DNA of 64,000 nt from Rubrivivax sp. (GTDB taxonomy: Bacteria > Pseudomonadota > Gammaproteobacteria > Burkholderiales > Burkholderiaceae_C): contig SEFA01000003.1 of assembly GCA_004210455.1 (NCBI GenBank), positions 62,001-126,000 of the forward strand, written 5' to 3'. The translations under genes and the position numbers were made by a program. Positions 3,184 to 16,377 of this stretch are shown piece by piece; position 1 is the stretch's first letter, and every line of letters starts with the position of its first letter. A model generated the notes under the pieces. That model was not told the origin of the DNA. It ran no database searches and worked only from the letters and a program-made list of their open reading frames with translations.

Positions 3184-4578
3184 ATGGACGCACGATTCAT
3201 CCGGCACTGGCGCCGCTCGACCGGCATCGCCGCCATCGCGTGGCTCCTGATCGCTCCCGCAGCGCGAAGCGCCGAACTCCCCGGGTGCGAGATCCCGGAC
3301 GATTCGGGCGCGCCGTTGACGCTGGCCGCCGCCGTCGACGCCGCGCTTTGCCGCAATATCAAGACAGCCACGGCCTGGCAAGCCGTTCAGGCGCGCACCG
3401 CCGAGGTCGGCATCGCCCGCGCCGCCTCGCTGCCGACCGTCAACGCCAGCCTGCTCGCCCAGGACTCCACGACACGCACGCCCGGCACCATCGATGCGAC
3501 GAGCCGGATGCGCGGCCTGGGCGGATCCGTCGGCGTGAACTGGCGCCTGTTCGATTTCGGCGAACGCGCGGCCAACCAGTCCTCCGCCGACAGCCAGTTG
3601 GCGGCGGCGGTCGCGAGCCGCGACGAGGCCGTGCGCAAGACGGTCGACGAGACCATTCAGGCCTATTTCGCCGCGCTGCAGGCTCGGGCCACCTTGGAGG
3701 CAAGGCAGCAGGCCGCCCGCCAGGCCGCCCGCACGCTGGCGGCGGCCGAACGTCGCGAGGAACGGGGCATCGCCGGCCGCAGTGACACGCTCCAGGCTGA
3801 AACCGCGCTGGCCCGCGCGCGCTTGGCCCGTCAACGTGCCCAGTCGGACGTGGATAAATCCTTTTCCTCCCTGGGCTACGTGATCGGCGCAGCTGTGGGT
3901 ACACCGCTCATCCTGCCGCCTCGTCCCCAATCCGTCGACGACACGCCCCTGCCCGAGCTGGCCGCCCTGCTGGACGACGCCCGCCTGAATCATCCGGCCA
4001 TCCTGGCGGCACGCGCGCAGCGTGACGCCGACAACCGGAAGGTTGCGGCAACGCTCTCCCAGGGGCGGCCCACGGTCGATTTCAGCCTGTCCCATCAGCG
4101 CAATGGATCGTCGAACCAGGTGCCCGCCGCCGGTCGTTCAAGCACCCTCTCCGCCGGATTCACCGTGAATATTCCCATATTCGACGGATATTCCAACAAG
4201 TATCAGGTCCAGCGCGCACGCGCGCAGGCGCAGACCTCCGAAGCGCAGGTCGTCGACGCCGAACAGCAGGTATTGAGCGAACTCGTCACCGCCGTGTCGG
4301 ATGTCCGTTCCTCACGGGCATCACTGGATGCCTCGAAGCAGCTGCTGGATACCGCCAATGCCGCCCTCGAATCAGCCGAGAACCGCTATCAACGAGGCGT
4401 CGGCGACATTCTCGAATTGATCAATGCCCAGAACGCCCTCAGCGATGCCTTGGAATCCCAGGCGCAATGTGAATCGCTGTGGCACGCCGCGCGCTTAAAA
4501 CTGCTGGCCGATATCGGCCAATGGCGCGGCAGCACGGACCTCGCATCCGTAAAGACCGACGCATTCCCCTCCCGCTGA
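3184..4578 (+). CDS. TolC-family outer-membrane factor of a type I secretion system
   Basis: This 464-residue protein would form the outer-membrane channel-tunnel of the exporter encoded downstream. It has an N-terminal signal peptide (basic RHWRR, hydrophobic IAAIAWLLIAPAA, likely cut near residue 30). Two outer-membrane-efflux repeats follow, with long alanine- and glutamine-rich helices (around 130-220 and 350-430). Typical sequences such as VNWRLFDFGE, FTVNIPIFDGYSNKY and GDILELINAQNAL match TolC-like proteins. A good ribosome-binding site (GGAGGA, about 3170-3175) precedes ATG 3184. It is the first gene of a same-strand series with the first giant repeat protein 85 bp downstream, so it is probably dedicated to that cargo rather than a general TolC. 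Confidence 0.92.
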   Translation: MDARFIRHWRRSTGIAAIAWLLIAPAARSAELPGCEIPDDSGAPLTLAAAVDAALCRNIKTATAWQAVQARTAEVGIARAASLPTVNASLLAQDSTTRTPGTIDATSRMRGLGGSVGVNWRLFDFGERAANQSSADSQLAAAVASRDEAVRKTVDETIQAYFAALQARATLEARQQAARQAARTLAAAERREERGIAGRSDTLQAETALARARLARQRAQSDVDKSFSSLGYVIGAAVGTPLILPPRPQSVDDTPLPELAALLDDARLNHPAILAARAQRDADNRKVAATLSQGRPTVDFSLSHQRNGSSNQVPAAGRSSTLSAGFTVNIPIFDGYSNKYQVQRARAQAQTSEAQVVDAEQQVLSELVTAVSDVRSSRASLDASKQLLDTANAALESAENRYQRGVGDILELINAQNALSDALESQAQCESLWHAARLKLLADIGQWRGSTDLASVKTDAFPSR

Positions 4579-4663
4579 CGCCGCGCATCACGCCCGTCGC
4601 TTCGGCCCCTCGCCGCCTGACGCAGGCCGGCCAGGACCGCCCCTCCTCCAGCAGCCCGCCACC

Positions 4664-15700: not shown

Positions 15701-16377
15701 CCCCGGTATCCCCGGTATCCCCGGTATCCCCGGTATCGCCGGTATCGCCGGTGTCGCCGGTGTCCCCGGTGTCCCCGGTATCGCCGGTGTCCCCGACGGA
15801 CTGGAGCCGGATGACGGCGGCGCAGATGAACGCGATGTCGGCCACGGACCTGGCAGCGGTGGCGCCCGAGGATCTCCAGAAGTTGCCGACCTCGAGCGTC
15901 AAGGACTTGAGCGCGGGCACCATCGCGGCACTCAGCGCCAAGCAGGTCGCCCAGTTACCCGCCATCGAGACGCTGTCCGCGAGCGCGGTCGCTGCCTTGC
16001 AGCCGAAACAGGTCGTGGCGATCGCTGCGACCGCGAACTGGTCCAAGGTCGATGCGAAGTGGCTCAACGCCCTGTCGTTCTCCGCCTTCGCGGGCGTCCC
16101 GGCCAGCGCGGTCAACCACCTGTCGAGTGGCGCGCTGCAGGGGCTTGACACCATGCACAGGGCCATCGCGCTCATGAGCGCCGACGCGGCGCACCTCGCC
16201 TATCTCATGCCGATGCCGACGCCGACGCCGACGCCGAAGCCGATGTCGACGTCAACCGTCGGGGCTGCACCGCTCATCCAGGCCATGGCGAGCTTCAACG
16301 CGCCTGCGTCGGTGACGACGCCGTCCCACGCCAACGCCGGCACGCAGGCGCTTTTCACGCTCGTGACGGCACGCTGA
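12781..16377 (+). CDS. Giant repeat protein 2 with embedded calpain-like cysteine protease; paralogue of cargo 1
   Basis: 1198 residues. The start ATG 12781 is chosen because it gives the same N-terminus (MTDLTKPN) as cargo 1; an upstream TTG at 12712 has no such support. Domain order is as in cargo 1 but with a shorter front: repeats (about 20-215), linker (216-315), calpain-like domain (about 316-550), repeats (551-968), a (Val-Ser-Pro)12 hinge (970-1005), repeats to about 1140, and a tail with QAMASFN and FTLV. Catalytic residues are Cys336 in [14 protein letters not shown], His493 in SGHAFAIIG and Asn511 in FRNPWG. Cys-His spacing is 157 and His-Asn 18, nearly identical to cargo 1. Two tandem ~70-residue units with AMEHPDWLS sit around residues 800-925. 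Export by the upstream type I system is inferred. No immunity-like small gene follows it. Confidence 0.85.
15688..15795 (+). repeat. In-frame 9-bp tandem repeat encoding (Val-Ser-Pro)12
   Basis: Exactly twelve 9-bp units of the form GT(A/G)TC(C/G)CCG run in frame inside cargo 2. The first five or six units are identical and later ones differ only at third codon positions. Because the unit is a multiple of three, gain or loss of copies would change hinge length without a frameshift. Confidence 0.95.

Follow-up and report, generated by a model that had tools for sequence, protein, structure and literature searches.

We describe a locus of Rubrivivax sp. that is predicted to encode a dedicated type I secretion system with two giant cargos, both of them C2 (calpain-family) cysteine proteases set on long helical solenoids. 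The locus lies in a stretch of 64,000 nucleotides (contig SEFA01000003.1, positions 62,001 to 126,000 of the forward strand), called here the window, and we assign this reading a probability of about 0.72. An initial annotation of the window had proposed that the repeat proteins leave the cell by the type I route, and two patterns in the sequences support this: the neighbourhood recurs beside exporters of different subfamilies, and the cargos share a C-terminal motif with two unrelated exporter-linked proteins. We infer export, a signal role for the motif, enzyme activity and substrates outside the producing cell. Each of the parts is known; their recurrent combination, the variety of exporters and the shared tail appear to be new.

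Two calpain-family proteases within a type I gene set

The block consists of five plus-strand genes (Table 1), whose order (TolC, repeat protein, HlyB, HlyD, repeat protein) and positions agree with those first annotated. An ABC (ATP-binding cassette) exporter, an adaptor and a TolC channel of the HlyB class are encoded together, as recognized by the NCBIfam models TIGR01846 (HlyB; 988 bits, cut-off 725.6) and TIGR01843 (HlyD; 305 bits, cut-off 208.7) and by Pfam OEP; the channel scores 179 bits with TIGR01844, under the 225-bit cut-off of that NCBIfam model. The C39-like domain of the exporter (Pfam C39, 70.4 bits) has D-T-G at the position where C39 peptidases carry D-C-G, which agrees with its earlier description as a non-peptidase domain. 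The HlyD start codon overlaps the HlyB stop codon, and the start of cargo 2 was placed at the ATG that matches the MTDLTKPN start of cargo 1. Operon status rests on the spacing of the genes, because promoter and terminator signals were no more frequent than in shuffled sequence. No other C2 match was found at E<=1e-3 in the host genome (6.3 Mb, 189 contigs).

Table 1. Coordinates of the block and its parts in the window
Feature	Position	Strand	Basis
tRNA-Leu(CAA), left of the block, context only, outside the system	2593..2677	+	
TolC-type outer-membrane channel, 464 aa	3184..4578	+	Pfam OEP 186.6 bits (cut-off 22)
Cargo 1, ALTTAQ-solenoid/calpain-like protease, 1483 aa	4664..9115	+	Pfam Peptidase_C2 and ALTTAQ
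Cargo 1 helical pre-domain, residues 372-470, KWFLGT stretch conserved in the subfamily	5777..6073	+	Alignments, cargo 2 model
Cargo 1 calpain catalytic domain, residues 471-672	6074..6679	+	Pfam stretch
Cargo 1 C-terminal tail, LVQAMAS from residue -34, putative type I export signal	9011..9112	+	
HlyB-type ABC exporter with C39-like domain, 722 aa	9207..11375	+	TIGR01846, Pfam C39
HlyD adaptor, 447 aa	11372..12715	+	TIGR01843
Cargo 2, ALTTAQ-solenoid/calpain-like protease, 1198 aa	12781..16377	+	Pfam Peptidase_C2 and ALTTAQ, ATG context
Cargo 2 helical pre-domain with KWFLGT stretch	13432..13746	+	Alignments, model
Cargo 2 calpain catalytic domain	13747..14325	+	Pfam stretch, model, Foldseek
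Cargo 2 C-terminal tail, LIQAMAS from residue -34, putative type I export signal	16273..16374	+	

The motifs QGxLGDCW, GHAF and RNPW had been read as the catalytic set of a calpain (C2), and the profile search bears this out: both cargos exceed the Pfam cut-off of Peptidase_C2 (PF00648; 38.2 bits for cargo 1 and 55.7 bits for cargo 2, cut-off 23.8). The catalytic residues are Q487, C493, H651 and N669 in cargo 1, and C336, H493 and N511 in cargo 2, counted from its ATG. Every one of the 54 aligned rows has the active-site Gln, Cys, His and Asn; the alignment keeps 52 of 56 references and omits four near copies. Sequence matches to calpains in the PDB were modest (best E 0.0014 for cargo 1 and 7.4e-6 for cargo 2), the remaining ones being the repeat protein HeliScrew4 and weak matches outside the catalytic domain. 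A model of the pre-domain and catalytic region of cargo 2, built with 54 sequences, reached a mean predicted local distance difference test (pLDDT) of 89.3 and a predicted template-modelling score (pTM) of 0.89. When this model was searched with Foldseek, calpains made up all 39 PDB chains at E<=1e-3 (best E=1.5e-11; template-modelling scores of 0.39-0.54 by query length), followed by cathepsin K and SpeB at E 2e-3 and weaker. The predicted structure of cargo 2 thus places Cys, His and Asn on a calpain fold, as had been anticipated. Cargo 1 is 64% identical to the modelled protein, cargo 2, in the catalytic region.

Between cargo 1 and its counterpart in Roseateles noduli, the nearest named relative in our scan, the pre-domain and catalytic region is 84% identical with a ratio of nonsynonymous to synonymous substitution rates (dN/dS) of 0.18, and by this comparison the catalytic region is under purifying selection. 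With R. noduli as the nearest named relative, the host is most likely a Roseateles-like member of the Sphaerotilaceae. Judged from sequence and model, both cargos are calpain-family proteases with intact catalytic residues and predicted activity.

Related calpains recur beside exporters of several classes

Relatives were sought by scanning the genome contigs of 84,980 species with a three-row alignment, and 80 of 86 loci were kept. The scan patterns were drawn from the pre-domain and the Cys motif and so favour this type of calpain; neighbouring genes were not used. With an iterated profile, calpains could be divided by the presence or absence of the helical pre-domain (KWFLGT). We compared neighbouring open reading frames (ORFs) of at least 120 aa with the HlyB, HlyD and TolC of the window, and called a calpain gene linked when an ABC and HlyD pair lay within 6 kb.

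Linkage was found for 16 of the 61 pre-domain genes of the scan, that is for 16 of the 38 proteobacterial ones (L052, from Rhodospirillales, counts as proteobacterial in this 38/23 split). The chance of a pair lying within 6 kb is about 1.2%, and at most 2.9%, as calculated from 27 genomes, each of which has between 1 and 11 HlyD matches at E<=1e-30. This excess over expectation supports type I export. None of 28 genes without the pre-domain was linked within 6 kb, one having a pair at 6.2 kb; two of the 28 are in fact pieces of split pre-domain genes (L052, L064), so that 26 remain. As a control these genes are weak, most of them belonging to other phyla; the density of HlyD genes is a better one. 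On a tree of 88 rows the linkage label changes 11 times, at least 8 of the changes being forced by well-supported branches; related rows are not independent. Among the 22 unlinked proteobacterial genes of the scan, 12 have a flank shorter than 3 kb on one side or both.

Seven further hand-picked pre-domain genes, six of them linked (G143 is not), were kept apart from the 61. They come from G143, G058 (chosen with the exporter already in view) and five other genomes, taken from the best matches among 15 weakly matching genomes, that of the window included. Among other C2 matches, none of which showed the pre-domain, no exporter pair was seen at one of the two of G182 or at G028 (14 kb each) or at G096 (16 kb), the remainder being covered over loci of 2-4 kb. 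Roseateles, Sphaerotilus, Leptothrix and Bradyrhizobium are among the named hosts in which the calpain gene is linked.

The exporters themselves differ. Among ten that were scanned, six pass the HlyB model (TIGR01846) and one passes PrtD (TIGR01842, 783.8 bits), two fit HlyB best below its cut-off, and one, incomplete at the end of its stretch, fits LssB best, also below the cut-off (TIGR03375, 652 versus 693 bits). For the 12 linked relatives that remain, exporter assignment relies on the phmmer score against the window HlyB alone. Since the same enzyme adjoins different exporter classes, export seems to be what matters.

The modules attached to the enzyme vary as well: ALTTAQ repeats in the window, L033 and L074, Ig-like He_PIG domains in L027, L045, L063 and L124, and a Calx-beta module in L028, where no exporter was seen. 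In L128, RTX (repeats-in-toxin) repeats, DUF4214 and the calpain domain share one chain beside an exporter. The 609-aa protein of L031 (Bradyrhizobium BTAi1) has the enzyme as its sole recognized part and carries the tail motif described below, as do the other relatives of 593-633 aa (L032, L041, L043, L051). The existence of such short Bradyrhizobium-type cargos suggests that the enzyme, rather than the stalk, is the payload. The C-terminus lies 5-91 residues beyond the enzyme in L020, L026, L033, L034 and L074.

Several loci deserve separate mention. A 1293-aa calpain ORF of Bradyrhizobium is nearly identical in L030, L035, L044 and L049, with no ABC and HlyD pair nearby, and the same ORF is split into two frames in L064 (Bradyrhizobium). 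L050 (9662-15460, Comamonas-labelled record) holds a 1933-aa calpain-bearing ORF beside a low-scoring exporter, and L101 (9281-18022, Endozoicomonas record) a 2914-aa one beside an LssB-like exporter. A viral origin of the calpains was considered and dropped, as a scan of viral contigs with the calpain region of cargo 2 found nothing.

A C-terminal motif shared with other exporter-linked proteins

In both window cargos the motif [LVIFS][VLTSI][QE][AG][MILV][AS][ASTGVN] starts 33-38 residues before the C-terminus. Within the same range it is also present in 11 of 22 exporter-linked relatives, as compared with 1 of 16 unlinked ones (Fisher p=0.005, related rows counted separately; the table has 38 rows, with three open-ended genes, L064, L087 and L052, outside it). 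L032, which carries the motif, lies on a contig that stops 156 bases past the gene.

From the window, L020-L104 and L124-L136 we took the six-frame ORFs with 120 aa or more, many of which are not genes, and surveyed their 4316 distinct ends. The motif occurs at -39 to -31 in 16 of these ends, all of them among the 533 that belong to ORFs with 500 aa or more. The 16 are 14 calpains and two non-calpain giants from the window's own genome, neither of which played any part in defining the motif. One is a 1614-aa RTX protein beside an HlyB-type exporter (L132, G000:C34:1-19000, 1168-6009, minus strand; exporter 934.5 bits by phmmer). The other is an ORF of at least 2331 aa with no Pfam match (L133, G000:C144:43501-63500, 13007-19999, minus strand), adjoined by an HlyB-type exporter (824.9 bits by phmmer), of which it is a candidate cargo. 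This genome has four more HlyD-like loci (ABC 180-286 bits), and none of their 306 ORF ends has the motif. Since it occurs at L132 and L133 and in none of these 306 ends, the motif goes with HlyB-type exporters among the HlyD-like loci of the genome.

The C-termini of RTX proteins have been described as preferring [FLI][VAI] at the last two positions, in the relevant section of one study (PMC8861453). The window cargos have Leu-Val at -5/-4, which is at best similar to that preference. From these sequence comparisons, the LVQAMAS-like tail is probably an export signal.

The cargos as predicted octad solenoids

Both cargos match the ALTTAQ repeat of Pfam (PF20080; 88.8 bits for cargo 1 and 48.1 bits for cargo 2, cut-off 26.4), and in each the catalytic domain lies between two repeat blocks. 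Hydrophobic autocorrelation peaks at 8 residues (0.51-0.56), then at 16, in all three cargo segments. The full-length model of cargo 2 shows helices of about five residues on either side of the enzyme, with local pLDDT mostly of 65-90, and a C-terminal tail that is disordered except for one helix at 1163-1170, which overlaps LIQAMAS. By periodicity and model, the repeats are predicted to form an 8-residue helical solenoid. Searching Foldseek with the full-length model of cargo 2 gave nothing at E<=1e-3, and mesothelin at 0.02 is merely a hint. Residues 145-261 of cargo 1 align with HeliScrew4 (PDB 9zem) at E=2.3e-10.

Other long ALTTAQ ORFs occur in the same genome (L021, at G000:C38:1-7500, and L022 and L130, on G000:C52), some of them running off contig ends. 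No HlyB or HlyD match was found within the stretches examined at these three loci. Two of their ORFs have similar ends (DDQNGAVPLI, EDDSAAPLL), unlike the cargo tail.

Discussion

Our results suggest a route by which calpain-type proteases could leave the bacterial cell. HlyB and HlyD would recognize the last ~35 residues of the cargo, which comprise an LVQAMAS-like helix and the short tail after it, as the motif suggests. The cargo would then be threaded unfolded through TolC, a passage that is established for this class of exporters. Outside, the octad repeats may fold into a solenoid that serves as scaffold or binding surface, and the composition of the repeats and the model suggest that this folding would replace the calcium-driven folding of RTX proteins. 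The calpain core, with its intact, conserved and selected active site, would fold there too and cut external proteins.

Several observations weigh against this reading. None of the 23 non-proteobacterial (cyanobacterial or planctomycete) pre-domain genes is linked to an exporter, and 23 of the 45 proteobacterial ones examined have no pair within 6 kb, 11 of these with flanks of 5 kb or more to either side. The tail motif was drawn up by eye on the calpain cargos, so that its count among them is circular, and 11 of the 22 linked genes do not have it. Seven of these stand beside low-scoring or non-HlyB exporters (L050, L101, L124-L128) and L045 beside an HlyB-like one below the cut-off. L068, L071 and L074 are motif-less beside high-scoring HlyB-like exporters, those of L068 and L074 passing TIGR01846 and that of L071 reaching 726 bits by phmmer only. 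RTX (HemolysinCabind) repeats were not found by Pfam in either window cargo. Modelled at full length, cargo 2 reaches a mean pLDDT of only 64 and a pTM of 0.35, a poor result that is usable only locally. Finally, calcium site 1 of calpain 2 is formed by Asp96 and Glu175, according to the part of a review that treats it (PMC4631099). With sites placed by alignment, the Glu is present in 54 of 54 rows and the Asp in 47 of 54, but the two window cargos have His and Asn in place of the Asp, and by this alignment calcium site 1 of C2 calpains is incomplete in them.

The relatives without a nearby pair might suggest that the neighbourhood is incidental, the calpains being cytoplasmic and the exporter serving another cargo. 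We consider this very improbable, because cargo 1 is separated from TolC on one side by 85 bp and from HlyB on the other by 91 bp, the linkage recurs beside exporters of different subfamilies, and the motif is common to other exporter-linked proteins. The calpain domain could also be an autoprocessing module, which after export cuts its own chain and releases the solenoid or detaches it from the surface of the cell. The true payload would then be the solenoid, as an adhesin or as a matrix or structural protein. The position of the enzyme between two repeat blocks would suit such a role, in some relatives the enzyme is combined with Ig-like or Calx-beta repeats, and giant exported toxins of the MARTX (multifunctional autoprocessing RTX) type have an autoprocessing cysteine protease domain, as described in part of PMC3034196. 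Yet the short relatives carry the same tail, L031, the one that was scanned, having no Pfam repeat block, and in L020, L026, L033, L034 and L074 the enzyme is near the C-terminus and not between modules. An autoprocessing role therefore seems unlikely to us.

A milder variant concerns what the exported enzyme would do. The initial annotation had it act on proteins of a host, a prey organism or a competitor, a reading that our findings neither support nor refute, as none of them points to a target. The enzyme might instead digest environmental protein or shape the biofilm of the producer, as a surface-bound or nutritional protease with no antagonistic role. The linked hosts Roseateles, Sphaerotilus, Leptothrix and Bradyrhizobium are free-living soil, water or plant-associated genera, and among the five block proteins no Pfam immunity or inhibitor family matched over its cut-off, both of which would fit. 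Calpains cut at few sites, however, which suits digestion poorly, and the presence of two paralogous giant cargos suggests a more specific role. On balance a nutritional function is possible, though we doubt it.

Dedicated type I export of the two proteases, the reading that we prefer, could be extended to the whole proteobacterial branch of KWFLGT calpains. Export would then be its ancestral or default state, with one invariant core combined repeatedly with varied stalks (ALTTAQ, Ig-like, Calx-beta, RTX) and varied exporters (HlyB, PrtD, LssB-like), and calcium site 1, retained by most members, would serve as a safety catch, the enzyme becoming active only in the calcium-rich exterior. This is speculative and, in our estimate, improbable. 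If true, the calcium control of calpains began as a secretion switch and was relaxed in the Roseateles lineage to which the window belongs.

How does the locus compare with known systems? Serralysin-class proteases (PrtDEF) and HlyA-type RTX toxins are encoded with an ABC exporter, an adaptor and a channel, adjoin these genes and have a C-terminal signal region. The window locus has the same gene set and a putative C-terminal signal region, but its cargos are calpain-family cysteine proteases on an octad helical solenoid with no RTX match. The autoprocessing cysteine protease domain of MARTX toxins belongs to family C80; the fold in the window is that of a calpain, and the small relative in L031 has the enzyme as its only recognized domain. 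There is likewise a cysteine protease inside a giant cargo in both cases, exported in MARTX, as part of PMC3034196 describes, and predicted to be exported here. HeliScrew4, a solved repeat protein with a chain of 120 residues, aligns to cargo 1 and is known to us by name only; no paper on it was found in the open-access PMC literature.

Bacterial homologues of calpains are rare, according to the section of Rawlings (2015, PMC4631099) that deals with them, and by 2015 possibly none had been biochemically characterized. The same section describes a homologue from Gloeobacter violaceus with eight HemolysinCabind domains, which may act outside the cell. Cyanobacterial calpains are described as probably cytosolic in part of another paper (PMC9380684). 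The homologues treated in PMC4631099 belong to the same catalytic family and have the same catalytic residues as the window cargos. Its passages on them mention no dedicated exporter, ALTTAQ solenoid, KWFLGT pre-domain or C-terminal signal, and the term "type I secretion" does not appear in its main text. Among the matches listed from open-access PMC papers (no preprints), judged by title and start of abstract, none described a calpain-family protease as type I cargo.

The recurrent exporter and the shared tail offer a handle on the destination of these enzymes, on their recognition and on where to seek their substrates. If our reading is confirmed, calpain-type cysteine proteases join the enzymes exported by type I systems, and the tail becomes a candidate signal, common to RTX and non-RTX cargo, that can be used in searches.

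Genomic setting of the block

In the window, tRNA-Leu(CAA) and a rhomboid gene flank the block. The gene order is the same in R. noduli, where cargo 2 is spread over two contig ends. In R. chitinivorans, cysM, tRNA-Leu, rhomboid, epimerase and oxidoreductase genes come first, and a one-cargo block follows about 1.3 kb further. In G127 (same genus, no C2 match) and in the Sphaerotilus genome G592, cysM, tRNA-Leu and rhomboid have no block between them; about 2.1 kb of other sequence separates tRNA from rhomboid in G127, and the calpain locus of G592 lies elsewhere in its genome. The block thus varies in presence and place near tRNA-Leu. The rhomboid gene (16399-17112, plus strand) was rejected as a part of the system, because it lies, like cysM, near the same tRNA-Leu in G127 and G592, which lack the block at that place. 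Integration by duplication of the tRNA end was also dropped, since no copy of its last 12-25 bases occurs within 2678-20000; no integrase was found among the 20 window ORFs scanned beyond the five block genes.

Elsewhere in the window, genes for a CHASE2-nucleotide cyclase, a GAF/HD-domain protein and a FecR-domain protein stand in a row on the minus strand (38114-43899) and are likely a signalling cluster. A transfer-messenger RNA gene with the tag ANDQTYALAA lies at 63513-63886, also on the minus strand.

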